From Daphnia pulex (Eukaryota; Arthropoda; Branchiopoda; Diplostraca; Daphniidae), in the NCBI RefSeq assembly GCF_021134715.1, contig NC_060026.1, positions 7,121,001 through 7,185,000 on the forward strand: 64,000 nt of DNA, given 5' to 3'. Shown here one piece after another: positions 23,653 to 34,391 of this stretch. The notes beneath the pieces were generated by a model. It did no database searches. It saw nothing but the letters and a program-made list of their open reading frames with translations, and was not told the DNA's origin. Each line of letters begins with the position of its first letter. Position 1 is the first letter of the stretch. The position numbers and the translations under genes were made by a program.

Positions 23653-23661
23653 TAATTTACA
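23653..23661. repeat. Target-site duplication TAATTTACA, left copy
   Basis: TAATTTACA directly precedes the GGGCGTCCC terminus at 23662 and is repeated exactly at 34383-34391, directly after the GGGACGCCC terminus. A perfect 9-bp direct repeat at exactly these two points marks one insertion event. Confidence 0.85.
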
Positions 23662-23667
23662 GGGCGT

Positions 23668-24609
23668 CCCTAAACTGCGAAAGCGAAACGCGAAACGCGA
23701 AACGCCTAAAATGCGGAAAAGCTGTGCGAAACGGACCAAAATTTTGGGACCGTTTCGCGGTACCAAATGCCGGAGGGCATACTAAAGAGCGAAACATCTT
23801 GCGAAACAAAAAGTTTTCCTTTTCCCCACAAGAGGTCCAAATTGACGGAGATTGCCGCCATTTTTCATTGTCTCCCGCTATGATGAGGCATTAAAGGAGG
23901 AAGGGGGGCAATCAAATTCGATTTCTTCGGCCACTACCCCTGTTATGTTTTAATGCGCATTTTACGATTAAACTAATGAAAGACATAGAGCAGCACGGTA
24001 TGGTGATATTTGTAAATACTAAATAATAATATGGGGATAATGGCACAGGGATTACTATACATTACATTAAATTATTTAAATCAACTAGTAGGCTACGTGA
24101 TTGTTCCGGCTACGTGCATAAAGGAAAAATCGGCCATTGCAGCATGAGTGCCTTAAATCAAGCTAAAAATCAAAGCTCCCATGTTCCAAATCAAGCTAAA
24201 ATTTAATCAGCTAAAACTTTCCTTAAAATTAAGAATGTTAATCTGATTGATACATGAAAACGAGAAGTTCCATTAATTTTTTTATACCAATCTTTTAATT
24301 AAAAACACCTATTGCATTCAAGGTATTCCGTATTCATGGTCAACACACAAATAGACCGGCCATAAGGCATAAAATGCGCGAAACTCGAAGTCTCGAAAAA
24401 TTGAAACTCTTAACTTTTGTTGATGGCGTCCATTGTCGTCTGCTACCAAGACGTTTACACTGCGACGTTTCGCACACACCGATTTCGCAGTTTAGTACGG
24501 ACCCAAAGACTAAAATGCGAAACAGGGTCCCAACTTTTGGGACCGTTTCGCACAGCTGTTTCGCATTTTAGGCGTTTCGCGTTTCGCGTTTCGCTTTCGC
24601 AGTTTAGGG
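23668..24609. repeat. Fold-back insert near the left end of the large transposon
   Basis: Inverted arms of about 93 bp (23668-23760 and 24517-24609) start CCCTAAACTGCGAAAGCG. They contain three tandem GAAACGC units followed by CCTAAAATGCG and a CTGTGCGAAACGG block. The interior is AT-rich and noncoding. It interrupts the long arm of the large element between its terminal 11 bp and position 24609. It may be a separate nested element or a rearranged terminus. Confidence 0.6.
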
Positions 24610-24978
24610 ATATGGCATGCCGTGGGGACAATCTGTTTCCTTAAAATTGGAAGCTTAAATTTTAAAAAATACTTATTTAAATATTAAAGTAAATGCTTAA
24701 TTACATTCAATTCTCTTATCTTTCTATTAACTTTTAATGTGTTTAAGTCTTAAATTTAAAAATAAAATTTTCAATGTTGAACGCTAAACGGCTAAAGTAG
24801 AAGTCTATCGCTGAAATTTGAAGTCTCAAGTATGTGAATTCGGTGTCTACAAGCGCCACCTATCAGTGAAAATACATACTCAAAAGGGCAATAGCTGTAT
24901 TTAGGTATTGTTCACTATTCTGCGGAATGTCGCGGGAGCACAAATCGAACAAGTCACTTCAAACTTTGATTTCGTTTA
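24609..24978 (+). repeat. Long inverted arm, left copy
   Basis: The sequence from TATGGCATGCCGTGGGGACA to TTTGATTTCGTTTA is the inverted counterpart of 34002-34368. By eye the two differ by very few changes, for example one substitution (TCTACAAGC versus TCTACTAGC) and one single-base gap near the inner end. No gene lies in it. Confidence 0.85.
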
Positions 24979-25282
24979 CCGTCGTAAAATTACGAGTTCT
25001 TTGACGATTTTTACGAGAATTTGAATTGAAATTTGATGCAGGCGTTGTAAGTAACGTTGTTAGTCAAAACAATGTTACTCGTGTCTCGTTTTAAAAAGAA
25101 CATTTTATAAGACAATATCGCCAGAGGATATCCCTTGTCTTTTTTGTTTTAATGTTGAATTTGCTTCCTCTTCCAAGAGATAATGATGCTTCTACTACAG
25201 TCTATAGCGAACCCTTTGGAAAAATTCTTTAGTAGTTTTATGGATGCATTCCACCGTGGGTGAAAGTAAAATTTCCCAAATC

Positions 25283-26926
25283 ATGAAAATCCTAGTCGTT
25301 AGTCTTCTTCTCTTCCTTCAGGTAAAAATCGATTGATTATTATTATATTTTGTCTCTCGTCAAAAATGTGAATTGAAATCCAACAAGGGTATTCAATCAG
25401 CGCCATGGTCTCCGTCTTGTCCTCACGAATGCTGGTGTCACGAATCCTACTTGGCCAGCATAGTCGACGAATGGCATCTACTCAATAAAATGCAGCCGGA
25501 TTCATCCGCCAGCCCCAATAGCAGCGCCCTTAATGACCTATTATTCCGTGCCGTAATTTGTGTCCAACAACACGACATGGAAATTGAAACCCTATTGGCC
25601 CGCTTGCCGTCTCAAACCGAGGTTCGTTGGAATACCTATAAATATCCTTCAATAACCGTGTCTAATGAATTTCCAATGAATTTTTAATAGGCCATGAAGA
25701 TTATCCAAGCATCCGACGCACCGGAAATCCGCTTGACGGCCACTCATTTGTCGAAATTTGTCAACTTGAGAGCTCTGGGTCTCGAAGGATCTCAACACTG
25801 TCTCAACAACAGGAGTCTAGTAGTGCGCCATCAATCATTTTACATTCGGATAGCCTCAAATCTTTGATTCAACTTCAATATTTGAGTCTTGTCAACTTGG
25901 AATTGCTGGATCAGCCTTCGCCGGAACCGGTCACGGTGGTCGAAATAGCCGACGACGAACAATCAGCCCCTTCACAACGGTTGACGTATGACGTTCCCGA
26001 AGAAATCCTGCCTTACGAAGAGTTCAAAAAGTTGCACCAACAAACGGAACTAAGCGTTCCGTGGAATGGCTTTTCAATGTTGACCCAACTCGAGTATTTG
26101 CTGATCGTCGGTTGCCAGTTGCCGGAAGCTTTTAGCACGGGTCACTCTGGTGCGTTCACGAGTCTGAGTCATCTGAAAGAGTTGACCATCCACACGAGTC
26201 AACTGCGAGTGCGGCTGGAAATGGAACCGGGCGATTTAATGGAATTGGAATCCCTTTCGCTAGCGGACAATGAGTTGCTGGAGATCAAGCCGGGCGAGCT
26301 GCAAGGAATGGGCGCACTCCAGCATCTCGATCTGTCCGGTAATCAGTTGACTCACCTCACCGAAAACTCTTTCCCTTTCCTGCCCGATTTGGAATCGCTG
26401 GATTTGAGCGACAATCCGCTTTCGACTCTCTACCCAAACACTTTCGCCAACGTCTCGTCCATCCGCCGCCTTTTACTCGCTCGGATCTTATCGCTGGAAG
26501 GAAGGCGAAATCGTCGTCAACCGAGAGCCCTTGTAAGGCATGCAGGTCGTTTCCATGGAGTTTGAACCTGACAGTTTCAACGGATTGGTGAAATTGCAGG
26601 AGCTCTGGATCAGTCAGGGCCCCCCTTGAAGGAAATAAAAGCCTCGATTCAAACTACTTTAAAGATTTGCTTTCCATTTCCGAGTTGCATCTACGCGGGC
26701 GGATCGTATCGATCGACGCCGACACGTTCAAGGCCAACCGACGACTTTAACATCTCGACTTGAAAAACTGTCAACTCCGCCGCTTGAGCGTCGACGCTTT
26801 CCAATCGTTACTCAAATTGCGCCTTTTAGACCTGTCGTCCAACCAACTGGTCCAGCTTCCGCCGGGCCTGTTCGACCCTGTCGTCTCGTTAAAAGAATTG
26901 TGGCTCAACGACAACAAGTTGACGAC
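25283..26926 (+). pseudogene. Leucine-rich-repeat protein fragment, disabled
   Basis: Exon 1 (25283-25321) encodes a signal peptide MKILVVSLLLFLQ. Exon 2 (25388-25621) carries an LRR N-cap-like CPHECWCHE. Exon 3 starts at 25691. From about 26060 classic extracellular LRR units follow, such as LESLSLADNELLEIKPGELQ and LQHLDLSGNQLTHL. The frame is lost between the start of exon 3 and 25864, again after 26480, and stops appear near 26538 and 26748 before LRR reading resumes (LLDLSSNQLVQLPPGLF). It ends abruptly at 26926 against the nested inverted repeat, with no C-terminal cap. A Toll-, slit- or chaoptin-like parent is plausible, but I cannot name it. All these breaks fit a captured, non-functional copy. 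Confidence 0.75.
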
Positions 26927-29650
26927 TGACGTAATATTTTGGGGGGAGCAACTCTTTAGGCGTGAAAATGTGTTCACAGCTCGAAGCAGAGCAATTTTTC
27001 CCTTCTGTTTCTTGGCCAGCAATATCGGATGGGGGTCCATTGTTGGTGTGGTCTCCTGTAACGGAATACGCTGCTTTATTTGAAAATTCTGAGTTTTTTA
27101 AACGATTGTAAATCAAATGAAATCATAGCCTACTGAAGAAAAGTAAAGACAATGCGCTGCTGATATATATATTTCTTCCTTTTTTTATGTGTGTAGGGCC
27201 AGATCCAATGCTGCTGATTACAACTGATCGAGATATTCGCTTCTTCTCAAAGAGTATGGACTCGTTGTATCAGGCATTTCACAAACGCACGGCGTCGCAG
27301 CTGATTATGAAGATGGGGTCGTCTACTGGAATGAAAAGAGCGAGGGCAAGGCTGGTATTTACAAATCCATGTTGGATGGATCAGCTTTCCAGTACGTTGT
27401 TTCGGTTGGTGTGGAGATTGTTGAAGACTTGGTGATCGACTGGGTTGGCAGACACATTTATTTCGCGGACTCCGGCCGGAAGCACATCGTCGTTTGCGAT
27501 TTTTATGCTGCCATTTGCAGTGTTGTCATTAGTGGACAACTAGACAAATCTCGTGCCGTGGCCGTCTATCCTGAAGAGGGTTTGCTTTTCTGGTCTGACT
27601 GGAGTTCTAGTTCACACATTGGTTCTGCTGGCATGGATGGATCGCAGCGGACAAACGTAATCACGGCAGACATTATTTGGCCTAATGGATTATCTGTGGA
27701 CGAAACCATTCAACGTATTTATTGGGTAGACGGCAAACTCAATCGCATTGAAAGTTCGCGGATTGATGGATCCGATCGTAAAATCCTTCCCTTTAAAGTG
27801 ACCCATCCGTACGCTCTCGATATATTTGAAAACACAATCTTTTGGTGCGATCCTCTGGAGCACGAAGTTCTTTCCGTGAACAAGTTTACCGGCAAGGATT
27901 ATAAGGTATTATTTATCTTCAGATTTGCGAGTCAATGAGGGCAAGTAAATTCTGAAAATCAAACTTTTCCAGATTTTGATGAAGGAGGCTTCATTAACTC
28001 CAACTGGCATCCACGTTCATCATCCTTCCAAGCAAAGCCATCTCACCAACCCCTGTCGAAACGTGATTTGCAGCCATCTCTGTCTTCTTTCACCAACCCC
28101 TACAAGGTTATAAGTGCGCTTGCCCTGTCGGAATGACTTTGAACAAAGACGGTCGTACCTGCGAGTCTATTTCCGCTCACGAATCTTCCATCGTCATCGC
28201 AACTTACACCGACATCTATCGCATGACTCATCACCAGATTGGCAAGGATTCCGTCTTTCGTCTGCCTACGCGTAACGTGGAATACATCGGTGCATTGGCG
28301 TACAGCCCCTTAGGCCACTCAATCGTCTACAGCGAAATGATTCAGAGGACGATCTACTCGATCCACCTGGATACTTATCGACAGACGGTTCTCTTCGAAA
28401 ACGTCGACATGGTCGATGGGTTGGACGTGGATTCCTTCACGGAGAACATTTACTGGACGGAAGTTACTCGGGAAACTGTTGTAGTTGGCCAAAAGAAACA
28501 CGATGGTAGTTATGACCGTCTAGTATTGGCCCGAAATCTTAACAGCCCCCAAGGTGTTACCATTGGATCCCAATCCGGCAGGATGTTCATCGTCGAGGGC
28601 CGCATCAGTCACGTCATCAGCGTTTGGCATATGGATGGAACTAACCGACAGGAGTTGGTCAAAGTTCGTGGAATTGTATCGTCGATGGCTTACGACGGCA
28701 AACATCTACTTCAGCGACTCCCTGCGAGGTACAATTGAACGGATCGAAGTCAACGGTGAAAATCGAACCATCCTTCGCTCTCATCTGGGCACTCCGGTTG
28801 CCATGGACGTCAGTGCAGATTCCGTCTTTTGGCTGACTCAATCCTCCACTCGCATCAGCTGGTTGAACAAGCAATAAGAGACGAAAACTATGCGCGGCTT
28901 CGTAATCGACGCTTCCGACGACATAAACGTTCAGTATCGTTTGATGTCCGATCGATTTCAACAGTCACGATCATCATTGCTTGGGGGATACTGGAGGTTG
29001 TAGCGACATTTGCGCACCAACACCTGATGGAGTCACTTGCCTGTGTCCATTGGGTAAAGTATTGGGAGAAGATAAACACGCATGTACTAAAGCCGACTGC
29101 GTTGGTGTTGAATGGTTTAAATGTCGAACCAGTTGTATTCCCGCCAAGTACCGATGCGATGGGGTCAACGATTGTGCCCTAGGTGAAGATGAGCTCCAGC
29201 GCCGCAACACGACGACAGAAGTAAAGTATTCTTTAAAGGTAGGTAATATAAATTACTTTTTTCTGAAAAAGACCGAGTGATTGTAAGGTGTGAAAGTGGA
29301 TGCTTAGATGGATTAGGGCAATAATAGGCGTGGTTAACCGTTCTACAATAAGATGGGTAGGGAGAAGAAATGTCAACACGCACTGACGAGCTCTCCTTTA
29401 CCGAAGATTACATCAGCAGCGCATTGTCTTTACTTTTCTTCAGTATAATTTCATTTGGTTTACAATCGTTTACAAACTCAAAATTTTCAAATAAAGCAGC
29501 GTATTCCGTTACAGGAGACCAACACCAACAATAGACCCCCTGCCGATATTGCTGGCCAAGAAACAGAAGGGAAAAATTACTTAGTGCTTCGAGCTGTGAA
29601 CACATTATCACGCCTAAAGAAAGAGTTGCTCCCCCCAAAATATTACGTCA
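26927..29650. mobile_element. Nested 2.7-kb inverted-repeat element enclosing an LRP fragment
   Basis: The arms are about 238 bp: 26927-27164 begins TGACGTAATATTTTGGGGGG, and 29412-29650 is its inverse. The arms differ at more positions than the outer arms of the host element. Nearly everything between them is the LRP-type receptor fragment. No transposase and no clear target duplication were found at its edges. The reading frames inside the arms are mirror images of each other and are not proteins. Confidence 0.65.
27197..29230 (+). pseudogene. LDL-receptor-related protein fragment (YWTD propellers, EGF, LDLa), disabled
   Basis: An acceptor (TGTGTGTAG) precedes LLITTDRDIRFFSKSMDS. The reading then jumps frame near 27265 to VVYWNEKSEG and runs through YWTD-type propeller blades (RIYWVDGKLNRIESSRIDGS, NIYWTEV, IYFSDSLRGTIERIEVNG). 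An intron is retained at about 27906-27972. EGF-like pieces follow (NPCRNVICSHLC, GYKCACPVGM, GGCSDICAPTPDGVTCLCP) and one LDL-receptor class A module (CRTSCIPAKYRCDGVNDCAL). Several frameshifts and a stop near 28875 separate these. Real LRP/megalin or vitellogenin receptors are thousands of residues with membrane anchors; this is an internal slice. No function is expected. Confidence 0.8.
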
Positions 29651-30404
29651 CTGGTTCTTAATTTATTTTTAAAAATACGTTTTTTTTTGTTCTGAAAAAT
29701 ATGTGTAAGATTAAAAACTGAAAGATGACTTTAATGTTATATAATACGAGTGTATTATGAGGAAGCTTTGTTACTTTTGCCACGCAGCGTATAGAATATA
29801 GAATATCGAAATTTCTCAACACATACACATGTTATGTAAACATTCACTGAAGCGTGGATGCTGCCCGTCTATTGTATAAAATGTTTATGGTTCTGAACGA
29901 TCATCGACAGGTGCGTTGGGTTTGACGACTAATGCGTTTTTCATCTCACCCAAAACATGTTACTTTTAACCAAGAACAAAACTGAAAACTCTTTTTCGCG
30001 AAAAATCCTCACGACCTATAAAAAAAAAAGGAATCAAAAACCTTAATTCTAATTTTATATTGAGTAATTTATAATTTTTTTTTTCTAATACGAAGCTTCT
30101 CTTATTGGGTTGCAGACAAGAGAATATTAGCAGATATTAGTCTGTGTAAGAAAAACAAATTTACATAGAATTCCCCTCTTTTTCGCTTCTTCTGGATAGT
30201 GTCATCTCTGGATCCCAGACGGCGTTGTAAATTCACTTTCAAAAGCAGCACTAGATAGAGCTTTTTGACAATTGTAGTCGTCTGCTTTTCGTGGTTTGTC
30301 ATTCATCCACATGTCTTTTTCTTCTTCGTGTTTTCAGTAAAATTACTTGAAGTAAAAGTTATTACAGATTTTTAAAGTATTTTCAAGTGAAAAAGGAAGG
30401 AAGA
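29651..30404. other. AT-rich spacer inside the large transposon
   Basis: I find no exon, domain or repeat arm between the nested LRP element and the BMS1 fragment. The last ~100 bases resemble a 5' UTR ahead of the BMS1 start codon and were probably captured with it. Confidence 0.4.
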
Positions 30405-31896
30405 ATGGAGGACCATGTTGATGAAGACAAGAAAAAGGCTCACCGGGAACGCCGTGCTGGTAAACTATTTTGCAGCACACAGTATTTGAAGACTATAGCA
30501 TTTAACGATGGTTGAAAAATTATTAGGGCGCAAAGCGGACAAGAAAAATTCAAGGATCCACACATCCAAGAAATGGATGAGAAAAGCTTTTGCTATCCAG
30601 TCATTAGCCAAGGCTCGGAAACATTTTCACAGGTAAATCGGTTTGGTTCAGCCCAGATCAATCGAATCTTGCATGAAATGTCTTTCATAGCTGACAAAAA
30701 TTTATTTCCCACGTTGGTTAGCAATTTCTTATTCTTTTCTTTTTTTTTCAGAGCACGTAAATGAAAAAAGCATCATATTCCATTAGTAGACAGGACTCCA
30801 TTAGAACCCCCACCGATCATGGTAGCCATTGTTGGCCCACCCAAAGTTGGAAAAACCACTCTACTCCAAGCTCTAATAAAAAACTTTACACGACAGAATA
30901 TCACATCCATACAGGGGCCCGTAAATGCGTTATCCGTTAATTTTTTACAATATTGAATCTAAAACTTATTATTTTTCTTGAAAAATCTAGGTAAAAAACG
31001 AAGGGTGACTTTTATGGAATGCAATAACGACATCAACTCAATGATAGACATCGCGAAAGTGGCTGACCTTGTTCTGCTTTTGACTGATGCTTCGTTTGGC
31101 TTTGAAATGGAAATTTTTGAATTTCTTAACATCTGTCAGGTAAGATTTACTGAAGCATACTCCTTGTGTTCAAAATTTATGATCTCGAACGATTACCAGG
31201 TGCATGGATTCCCCCGAGTAATGGGCGTTCTGACTCATCTGGACATGTTCAAGAATAACAAACAACTGAAAAAAACTAAAAAAGTTTTGAAGCACAGATT
31301 TTGAACAGAAGTTTACCAGTGAGCGAAATTGTTTTGCCTTTCTGGTCAACTCCACGGAACCTACCCTACAAACGAGATCAAGAACCTCGGCCGCTTTATC
31401 TCGGTCATGAAATTCCTACCTCTGTTGTGGAGATCGACTCATCCTTACGTCTTGGTGGACCGATTGGAAGACATGACACCTCCCAGTCGATTACACGAGA
31501 ATCCCAAATGCAATCGGGACATCTGCCTTTACGGTTTCGTGCGTGGTGTCCACTTGAGAAATCACTGCCCCATCCACATCCCAGGCTGTGGTGATTTCCG
31601 CCTTAAAGATGTTTCTTTTCTTCCCGATCCTTGCCCTTTACCGGATAAATTGAAAAAACGTTCGCTGGTCGAAAAGGAGAAGCTGATCTATGCCCCCATG
31701 TCTGGGGTGGGCGGTATCATCTACGACAAGGATTCCATCTACATTGAGCTTGACGGCAGTCACTCGCACTCCAAACAGGATGGCCCTACAAATCCTAAAT
31801 CAGAGATGATCTCGTCGCTGATGAAGTTGCAAAGGACGCTGGATGTACAGATGTCTGAATCAAAAGTAGAAGGACCTACTCTGACTCGGGCGGAAA
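30405..31896 (+). pseudogene. BMS1 ribosome-biogenesis GTPase fragment, disabled, introns retained
   Basis: It starts MEDHVDEDKKKAHRERRAG, then (after an intron) RKADKKNSR and KAFAIQSLAKARKHF, then VDRTPLEPPPIMVAIVGPPK and VGKTTLLQALIKNF (P-loop GPPKVGKTT). Next come RVTFMECNNDINSMIDIAKV, VLTHLDMFK and a long domain with YGFVRGVHLR. This order is that of BMS1, the GTPase of the small-subunit processome. Retained introns lie near 30460-30530, 30631-30750, 30920-30990 and 31141-31199. In-frame TGA codons appear at 31302 and 31320 and another near 30763. The fragment ends after about a third of the protein (BMS1 is usually over 1000 aa). It is a DNA-level partial copy; the working gene must be elsewhere. 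Confidence 0.85.
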
Positions 31897-31912
31897 TTTT
31901 GGCTGCCCGATT

Positions 31913-33284
31913 TTGGCTGCCCGATTCACATTAAGAAACCCGTTCGGCTGCCCAGCTGACACCAAGGCCGTCATTGAATGCTCGTCTGACTCGGACTGTT
32001 CCGGCCGGGCCAAGTGCTGCTCCAACGGATGCAGTTCCACCTGCACCTCCCCCGAAGGTCCGTTTAATTGGAAATTATTTAAAGTTAATCGAATTAAATT
32101 TAATCCAATTAAATGGAATTTTTTTTAAATTAACGAAACAGAAAACAGTTCCGGCCCGTTGATGATGTCCATCTCTCTGCCCGTCTGCACCCTGAAGGGC
32201 GACTATGCCCGGGAGCAGAGCCAGGGCGAGTTCAGCTGGTGCGTGGACACGACCGGCCAGCCCATCGACGACTCCTTCACCCGCGGATCGGTCCGCTGCT
32301 CGCCCAACGGGACCGTCCTGGAGCAACGGACCCTGGGTCCCATCTGCCCCGACCCGAGCGTCCAGCCAACCGCCTACCGGGACGAGTGCCTCCACGTCCG
32401 CTGCCCGTTCATCCCGGACGCCATCTGCGTGGCCGATCCTTGCGACGACTGCAAGGTGGCCTTCATCGACGAACAGGGCCAGCGGCTTGAGTGCACCGAT
32501 CGCTGCAGCTAGCCGGCCGAGACGGGCCACTGTTGGGCCCTTTTCCCCCGCTACTGTTACAACGTTTCTTCCCGATCCTGGGAGGAATTCATTTCCGGCG
32601 GATGCGAAGGCAACGAAAATAATTTCGAATCCGTCCAGGAGTGCAGCCAACACTGCGAGAAACCAGGTAGAAAATTCAATTGACTTTAATTCATTTGACT
32701 TTATTCATTTAACTTAATTCACAAATTTTTTTGTTTCATTAAAAATTTTTGTTTTATTATTTTTAATAGTGAACGTGTGTGAATTGCCCAAGGAGCCGGG
32801 CATGTGCCGGGCGAATTTCCCTCGCTGGGCTTACAATCCGTAGACTCAGCTGTGCGAGAAATTCTCGTTCGGCGGATGCGGAGGCAGCGCCAACAACTTT
32901 CAAAGTTACCAGCAGTGCGCCAGCCGCTGCCCGGACTTGGTCCTCTGCCCGCAGCAGTCGCCGATGCAGGGCGAGATCAAGTCGTGTAGCCGTAACGAGG
33001 CCTGCGCCGGACAGACGTGCGCCAACCACCCGGAAGCTGCTTGTTCCGTCGATCCTGCACCTGTCAGGCCGTCTTTGTCGGCGCAGACGGACAGGCCGTC
33101 AAGTGCCTGGGTCAAGTCGAGCCGGCCGTCCTCCAAGCCGAGCCCCGCCACGCCTTCCACGACGTCCAGCCGGAAGTCAAAGAGTCGACGACAACAACAA
33201 CCACGACAACAACTACCACCACCAGCCCAACAACCACCACAACAACAACGACGAAAGCCCCAACAACAACGTTGGGTTAATGTT
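31913..33284 (+). pseudogene. WAP / thyroglobulin-1 / Kunitz multidomain inhibitor fragment, disabled
   Basis: Domains in order: WAP-like (NPFGCPADTK, CSSDSDCSGRAKCCSNGC), thyroglobulin type 1 (VCTLKGDYAREQSQGEFSWC with downstream RGSVRCSPNG), Kunitz 1 (GHCWALFPRYCYN, FISGGCEGNENNF, CSQHC), Kunitz 2 (CELPKEPGMCRANFPRWAYN, FSFGGCGGSANNF, CASRC), then a cysteine-rich stretch and a Thr tail near 33185-33280. Stops interrupt at 32510 (before Kunitz 1) and 32841 (inside Kunitz 2), and the frame shifts after 33050. The exons are clearly GC-rich, unlike the AT-rich sequence around them. Papilin-like or thyropin-type secreted protease inhibitors have such mixes; the parent cannot be named. No signal peptide is present, so the 5' end was not captured. 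Confidence 0.8.
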
Positions 33285-33439
33285 GATTAACGCTTTATAA
33301 TCATCCATTGGCGAGAAATGAATTTTCAATTTGATTAATAAAACCTTGTCACATTTCTCCGGCATTTCTTATTTCACACCTGCGTTAGCGAAGCATTTTC
33401 TAGATGAGGTAGTTTATATTATTACAATCCCTTCGATTC

Positions 33440-33600
33440 GAAATGTAGTCGTTCAATTATAACTTGAACCTTTAGCGTGAGATCATGCCTGTTGATAAGA
33501 TCCAAAATTTGGACGACGCGCTCTCCAACTGCGCTCTCTAATTGGTTGTTGCTGCACGAGTGAATCCTCCATGGGCGTTGTCCATGCGCGTGTCGTAGAC
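33440..33600 (-). pseudogene. Unidentified coding-like remnant on the minus strand
   Basis: The minus strand has a coding-like stretch reading GERVVQILDLINRHDLTLK and ending in a stop near 33430, with GC content higher than its surroundings. I do not recognise it. Its opposite orientation sets it apart from the other captured pieces. It could be a C-terminal exon of another gene or a chance frame. Confidence 0.3.
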
Positions 33601-33749
33601 GATTTTCAGGAGATTAGGAAAGTCCAAATTTCGGAAAATGGCAATGCAATTTGGATTCACATCTTTTCCAAATTCCAGCAGAAACCGAATGATGCCTAGA
33701 AAACAACCCAAAAGCCCAGTACGGTGGATCTACAACCCAATCAAAAAAT

Positions 33750-33990
33750 GTAGGACAATGGGAAAAATCCCGCCCCGGACGATTCAAAAAATACCCCCCC
33801 CGCACCATCATCAGTGGCCCAGTAAAGACTGAAGAAGAACTCGTCGTCATTTCCAGTCCCATTGAGGAAAAATCTCTCCCTGGCAACAGACTTTTACTCA
33901 CCAATATCCAAGGTGGCGATTATGGGCGGATTGTTGGTAGCGGGGGATCAAACATCTATCGCATTGAAACAGAATACGAAATCGTCGTGA
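33750..33990 (+). pseudogene. KH-domain-like fragment
   Basis: The plus strand reads GPVKTEEELVVISSPIEEKS and LLLTNIQGGDYGRIVGSGG, then SNIYRIETEYEIV, followed by a GTGAGT donor at 33990. The G-R-I-V-G-S-G-G loop followed by an I-x-x-I pattern is the signature of a KH RNA-binding domain. Upstream coding is broken, with a C-run near 33788. No downstream exon follows because the transposon arm starts at 34002. The parent gene is unknown. Confidence 0.5.
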
Positions 33991-34001
33991 GTACAAGAGG
34001 A

Positions 34002-34368
34002 TAAACGAAATCAAAGTTTGAAGGACTTGTTCGATTTGTGCTCCCGCGACATTCCGCAGAATAGTGAACAATACCTAAATACAGCTATTGCCCTTTTGAG
34101 TATGTATTTTCACTGATAGGTGGCGCTAGTAGACACCGAATTCACATACTTGAGACTTCAAATTTCAGCGATAGACTTCTACTTTAGCCGTTTAGCGTTC
34201 AACATTGAAAATTTTATTTTTAAATTTAAGACTTAAACACATTAAAAGTTAATAGAAAGATAAGAGAATTGAATGTAATTAAGCATTTACTTTAATATTT
34301 AAATAAGTATTTTTTAAAATTTAAGCTTCCAATTTTAAGGAAACAGATTGTCCCCACGGCATGCCATA
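34002..34368 (-). repeat. Long inverted arm, right copy
   Basis: Inverted counterpart of 24609-24978, followed by ATAAT and the terminal AGGGACGCCC (34373-34382). Unlike the left copy, this arm runs uninterrupted into the element terminus and so shows what the intact end looks like. Confidence 0.85.
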
Positions 34369-34382
34369 ATATAGGGACGCCC

Positions 34383-34391
34383 TAATTTACA
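34383..34391. repeat. Target-site duplication TAATTTACA, right copy
   Basis: Exact direct repeat of 23653-23661, immediately outside the right terminus of the 10.7-kb element. Confidence 0.85.

Follow-up and report, generated by a model that had tools for sequence, protein, structure and literature searches.

The window analysed here, a 64,000-nucleotide stretch of Daphnia pulex contig NC_060026.1 (C10:7121001-7185000), contains a gene-carrying element of 9,761 bp (24611-34371). This element is likely a non-autonomous transposon, probably of the IS3EU type ('Pack-IS3EU'), which carries fragments of host genes, has spread as a unit and gained its cargo by template switching. Genome searches over the 133.2-Mb, 13-contig assembly retrieved three further full copies: L009 on C9 (8,379 bp), L010 on C3 (8,368 bp) and L011 on C8 (8,474 bp). 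LRR, LRP and BMS1 cargo is common to all four copies, which lie on four contigs with differing flanks. The first-pass annotation had placed a 10.7-kb gene-carrying transposon at 23653-34391; a multi-gene transposon is indeed there, but its true limits are 24611 and 34371.

The element starts with TATGGCATGCC (TATGG) and finishes with GGCATGCCATA (CCATA) followed by ATA. Its terminal arms, about 370-390 bp long, occupy 24611-25000 (plus strand, starting TATGGCATGCCGTGGGG) and 34002-34371 (minus strand). They are 100% complementary over 345 nt (24611-24955 and 34024-34368) and differ by one mismatch and one gap over 368 bp. The target duplication is TAGGGA, at 24605-24610 on the left and 34372-34377 on the right; alternatively, it can be read as 8 bp with one mismatch (TTTAGGGA/TATAGGGA).

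The sequence immediately outside these limits belongs to an older, high-copy inverted-repeat element of about 950 bp with GGGCGTCCC ends. It lies at 23662-24610 on the plus strand and is broken near its right end, its last five bases (CGCCC) being found at 34378-34382 on the same strand, so that this end reads ...CAGTTTAGGGA, then 9.8 kb of other sequence, then TAGGGACGCCC. Its own 9-bp target-site duplications, TAATTTACA, stand at 23653-23661 and 34383-34391. A 947-bp query matched at full length in at least 31 places, that of the window included, a lower bound given that 40 of the 78 candidates were scored; the others (at least 30) are 87-92% identical to the window copy. The 29 other copies examined (L022-L050) all end in TCGCTTTCGCAGTTTAGGGACGCCC; the 9-bp duplication is exact in 25 of them and one base off or shifted by one in the remaining four. 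Two of the 29 (L049 and L050) have identical flanks and are not independent. Read from the sequence, the gene-carrying element has jumped into the right end of this older element. MULE duplications are 8-11 bp long, usually 9, and by duplication length the ~950-bp element is MULE-like. A diverged end of the same family was also seen at L010:9097-9245 (C3), about 130 bp from the right arm of L010, by chance or through target preference.

The identical 9-mers flanking inverted termini, on which the first-pass annotation had relied, are present: TAATTTACA occurs at the two outer positions and nowhere else in the window, with GGGCGTCCC and GGGACGCCC directly inside. Two occurrences alone are at chance level (1.64 expected; at least two in 46 of 100 shuffles). 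However, the 9-bp duplication and the GGGCGTCCC ends had been taken for those of the gene-carrier, and both belong to the ~950-bp element; nor do the arms lie just inside the outer ends, as 949 bp of foreign element intervene on the left. Because the duplication and the outer ends come from another, invaded transposon, they no longer argue for a Pack element of the MULE type. A single 10.7-kb MULE-type unit would account for the matching outer 9-mers, the long arms and the captured fragments, but it is extremely improbable and was dropped once the 9-bp duplication had been traced: its supposed ends and duplications are those of an element that is complete elsewhere, and GGGCGTCCC ends are found in none of the three other gene-carrying copies, which refute it. 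In L010, moreover, the diverged piece of the ~950-bp family is outside the right arm.

The genome-wide search with the arm gave 20 matches, including the window pair and three pairs 8.4-8.5 kb apart; this check, proposed in the first-pass annotation, thus returned three more arm pairs that have cargo in common, each pair with a flank duplication of its own. A single alignment covers the window copy and L011 (24611-31892, 97.7% identity). For L009 and L010, identity to the window copy is 97.4-97.6% as far as 30126 and 90.6-90.7% in the stretch 30194-31892. L009 and L010 are 99.4% identical over 8.4 kb, and within copies the arms are 98.4-99.5% identical. Pairwise comparison of L009, L010 and L011 found no homology past the arms beyond about 15 bp. 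The flank duplications are CAACATG in L009 (7 bp, flush), CACAAT in L010 (the only flush 6 bp), CACAAG in L011 and TAGGGA in the window copy, the last two being 6 bp only if four extra bases are assigned to the left end of L011 and three to the right end of the window copy. Cargo-bearing copies with distinct target duplications, the mark of a mobilised Pack-TIR (terminal inverted repeat) element, therefore number four.

Two of the four copies, those of the window and L011, are inserted in other repeats, and copies of these repeats without an insertion provide paralogous empty sites. The L011 site is uninterrupted at C5:1493217-1494341, as it is in 15 or more further copies of its repeat. This repeat, of which at least 16 copies measure about 1.1 kb or more, also lies just upstream of BMS1 on C5 (L054:3718-4842), its C8 copy being the landing site of L011. 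The other arm matches were partial or diverged (loci L012-L020), and terminus searches added a few lone ends. A looser terminus search gave 20 places against one in the reversed control; a search with the diverged L017 arm mainly recovered another repeat (query 399-649). L016:3899-5316 on C3 is a 1.4-kb relative with arms of about 209 bp that are 78% alike and TTTGG/TATGG ends, and L056:1096-1130 (C9:8767.6 kb) is a lone terminus following a near-repeat of its own first bases, perhaps an insertion beside another end.

The cargo begins with an LRR gene fragment (25031-26928; plus strand, as are all pieces except the next), which has its parent at C9:1547461-1549324 (95.7%) and is cut within the parent's 650-aa open reading frame (ORF); relatives of the parent protein were found in D. 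magna (71%), D. carinata (70%) and D. sinensis (67%). Next comes, on the minus strand, an inverted copy of 29409-29655 (26922-27167, about 245 bp, 85-97% by segment), which brackets the LRP piece on the left. The LRP gene fragment itself (27171-29223) has its best parent at C9:7973516-7975587 (91%) and also matches C11:4062788-4064867 (90%), and a second piece of the C9 LRP locus (29240-29382; C9:7971607-7971750, 95%) comes from 1.77 kb further on in the parent. The most diverged piece, 29382-30106, is 72.5% like C5:1484461-1485182 and contains the right inverted-repeat copy. A BMS1 gene fragment follows at 30178-31892 (locus C5:1491454-1493201). Only the window copy continues with a WAP/thyroglobulin-1/Kunitz gene fragment (31893-33271, 98% to C5:3078797-3080185) and a piece that closes with the initial part of a KH-domain gene (33281-34002, 98% to C5:3083476-3084197). 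A nested transposon around the LRP piece, with the 245-bp inverted repeats as its ends, was set aside as less likely: the right copy runs on into sequence homologous to C5, and the left copy begins at the LRR joint with a 2-bp overlap.

The fragments named in the first-pass annotation were largely recovered. Pfam cut-offs were passed by plus-strand LRR, LDL-receptor-B (LRP), AARP2CN (BMS1), thyroglobulin-1, WAP and Kunitz stretches. The KH fragment of the window has no Pfam match, and its assignment is indirect, through the homologous C5 gene (L058), which has KH_1 at 1.1e-5. The retention of introns, and with it copying at the DNA level, is borne out by stretches of 1.9-2.1 kb that align end to end with parent loci, and the presence of pieces of about five host genes in one element by separate source loci on C9, C9/C11 and C5. 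The arm was not found in the stretches examined of six source-type loci (L051-L055 and L058). Host sequence between arms together with arm-free source loci is what identifies a Pack-TIR, and both are seen here. As to the putative exon shuffling proposed in the first-pass annotation, those captured frames that were examined are broken; the second Kunitz unit, for one, contains a stop, whereas that of L051 is open. A function of the captured genes is unsupported.

The BMS1 part of the window copy changes character along its length. This was followed at 201 informative sites, at which L009 and L010 agree and both differ from L051 and L054. Of the 92 sites up to 30763, 86 are element-type in the window copy (four locus-type, two neither), and of the 109 from 30786 on, 105 are of the BMS1-locus type (three element-type, one neither). 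Past BMS1 it tracks L051 (C5:3077-3084 kb) across the same BMS1-WAP joint, minus 3.3 kb, to the arm at 34002. L051:1-9901 (C5:3076000-3085900) is a chimeric locus with a BMS1 5' part, a WAP/Kunitz/thyroglobulin gene and a KH piece, without transposon arms; it is flanked by direct repeats of about 560 bp, 90% alike. L011 has locus-type tracts of its own at 31391-31811 (29 of 31 sites) and 30810-30863 (six of eight). At 31667 and 31676, both L011 and the window copy are element-type, so that an earlier conversion was probably inherited by both. Over 29656-30177, the window copy is 4-5% divergent from L009 and L010, against 0.5-1.3% further left, a hint of exchange between element lineages.

Inspected by eye, the joints have 0-2-bp overlaps or fillers of roughly 8-17 bp. 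Homology at one end and an illegitimate joint at the other agree with a mechanism of strand invasion and template switching, which suggests that homology-primed template switching, closed by illegitimate joining, is behind the cargo of the window copy. On this view, cargo would have been acquired while the element was being repaired or replicated. The BMS1 fragment already in the window copy would probably have paired with a chimeric locus containing BMS1, such as that at C5:3077-3084 kb, synthesis would then have run on into the adjoining WAP and KH sequence, and the new end would have been joined to the arm without homology. Movement would depend on a transposase made elsewhere in the genome and acting through the arms.

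The cargo seems to have been gathered step by step. It is layered, since BMS1 is already in a diverged relic and the WAP/Kunitz and KH parts are in one of the four copies. The relic, L013, is 84.8% identical to L011 over 762 bp and has BMS1 tail sequence beside the arm, second BMS1 skip included. In L009-L011, the BMS1 part is 85-86% identical to the BMS1 locus and continues with further BMS1 parts after two skips. Identity to the parents is 91% for LRP, 95.6-96.7% for LRR and 98% for WAP/KH. The LRR piece is 3.3-4.4% from its parent versus 0.16-0.59% among the copies compared, and this low divergence among copies places the LRR capture before their spread. The order of capture is rough only, because conversion occurs and the best matches may not be the true parents.

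As to the superfamily, both arms of all four copies end in TATGG..CCATA, the stated IS3EU ends. An IS3EU-type 6-bp duplication is flush in one copy, appears in two more with 3-4 extra end bases and is replaced by 7 bp in the fourth. IS3EU is described as having TAYGG..CCRTA ends and 6-bp duplications (PMC12730594), or TA..TA ends and usually 6-bp duplications (PMC10045372). Judged by motif and length, the ends and duplications probably fit IS3EU better than MULE. As no transposase with the arms of the element was found, the superfamily rests on the ends and the duplication length.

The search for a transposase and several further observations weigh against the interpretation as a template-switching Pack-IS3EU. 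The first-pass annotation had reported no transposase inside the element; none was recognised by us either, within a Pfam scan of part of the 43 ORFs listed (15 window stretches, two of which, 32508-32678 and 32937-33287, were set in the wrong frame and gave no match; the Kunitz stretch was rescanned in frame). At ten arm-type loci, none was found in the 21 of 62 ORFs (at least 110 aa) that were Pfam-scanned, the rest being judged by eye; the 21 gave matches to an ABC transporter, CBF/Mak21, cytochrome b5 and a weak zinc ribbon. None of the 85 genome-wide matches to the integrase-type rva_4, which we take to be a marker of IS3EU-like transposases, is beside an arm (nearest about 19 kb, by eye), nor is any of the 55 MULE-transposase (PF10551) matches, 48 of them over the cut-off (nearest about 44 kb, by eye). 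The surroundings of two rva_4 loci (L057 and L059) held no matching arms. About 55 of the 85 rva_4 matches have internal stop codons (by eye) and most MULE-transposase matches are open, so that MULE transposases look better kept. The target duplications are not uniform across the four copies, and 25001-25030 (about 30 bp) and 30107-30177 (71 bp) fall outside the identified pieces. After the BMS1 switch, the window copy still has element-type sites at 31667, 31676 and 31928, which implies more than one tract or an unseen donor and not one simple tract from L051. Finally, WAP/KH could have been gained either in place on C10 or before insertion.

Considering these points, three other explanations have to be weighed. 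Membership of another superfamily, either a MULE with a short duplication or Dada, whose duplications are 6-7 bp, is unlikely. It would agree with the long arms, the copy with a 7-bp duplication and the MULE-transposase matches of this genome, many in open frames. MULE-MuDR and Dada also make up 0.15% and 0.08% of a D. pulex assembly, as compared with 0.05% for IS3EU (PMC8594854), and 4-10-bp duplications are given for IS256 and MuDR together (PMC10045372), so that length alone does not exclude a MULE. On the other hand, TATGG..CCATA matches the TAYGG..CCRTA of IS3EU (PMC12730594), 6 bp are readable in three of the four copies, and no MULE match is beside an arm.

A closer contest is offered by the possibility that WAP/KH was added on C10 after an 8.4-kb element had landed there, by a break and subsequent repair from a C5-like locus without transposition; we regard this as quite plausible, if somewhat short of even. 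Such gap filling is the model for single-copy Pack-TIRs (PMC8277862), WAP/KH is confined to a single copy among the four, and one of its sides is joined by homology while the other is not. However, all four copies have the older cargo, which was therefore acquired before their spread, and the single mismatch and gap between the window arms imply that not much time has passed since insertion, barring conversion of the arms. That there is no transposon at all, merely dispersed segmental duplications ending by chance in inverted repeats, can hardly be right: the arm-free chimeric BMS1-WAP-KH duplicate on C5 (L051) would suit it, but each of the four copies terminates with its arms, the flanks differ from copy to copy and show duplications, and paralogous empty sites exist for two of them.

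Beyond the Pack-IS3EU interpretation of this one element, we tentatively propose that IS3EU elements might, in an animal, collect genes serially. A captured fragment would prime invasion of its parent gene or a duplicate during repair, leading to self-conversion and to read-on into neighbouring sequence, so that capture begets capture. Gene capture by TIR transposons is well described in plants, and multicopy cases are rare in the animal survey (PMC8277862). The present animal case combines several genes with copies that differ in cargo; an older stage survives as a relic, the parents can be recognised, and paralogous empty sites exist for two copies, which makes the order and mechanism of capture readable from the sequence. 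If the BMS1 switch is what it appears to be, gene conversion with parent genes would be tied to the acquisition of further cargo, and the growth of such elements would have an explanation that can be tested.

Plant Pack-MULEs carry several fragments per element, with introns. They share with the Daphnia element long arms and fragments from other chromosomes, and about a third are multicopy in rice (PMC8277862). They have MULE ends, whereas the Daphnia element has 6-7-bp duplications and TATGG..CCATA. Helitrons are rolling-circle elements without such arms. In maize they likewise collect gene fragments stepwise (PMC3288121). The likeness to IS3EU lies in the TAYGG..CCRTA ends, TIRs longer than 30 bp and usually 6-bp duplications (PMC12730594, PMC10045372). 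Non-autonomous IS3EU families exist, 17 of 45 Repbase families being autonomous, and in fungi TET/JBP and alpha-kinase genes may accompany the transposase of IS3EU elements (PMC12730594, PMC10045372), whereas the Daphnia element has broken host fragments and no recognised transposase. No report of IS3EU with host gene fragments in an animal was found among the titles and abstract starts listed by searches of an open-licence library.

The first-pass annotation had proposed an animal Pack-type element with the architecture of plant Pack-MULEs. Its Pack character, with about five genes copied at the DNA level, stands, and the MULE basis went with the foreign 9-bp duplication. A survey of animal genomes has described 370 Pack-TIRs, 323 of them hAT and TcMariner, and few of them multicopy: it has four such cases in reference genomes, the example shown carrying 291 bp (Tan et al. 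2021, PMC8277862). IS3EU and Daphnia are absent from the main text of that survey (PMC8277862). Ssk-FB4 of Drosophila melanogaster resembles our element in being multicopy, with long arms and a captured gene, and template switching has been proposed for it; it differs in having one gene, 9-10-bp duplications and arms of about 700 bp, and in its assignment to MULE (PMC8277862). Like animal Pack-TIRs (PMC8277862), the Daphnia element has host sequence between its arms, multiple copies with distinct duplications, and microhomology or short inserts at its joints; unlike them, it brings together about five genes in 8-10 kb, four copies and layered capture.

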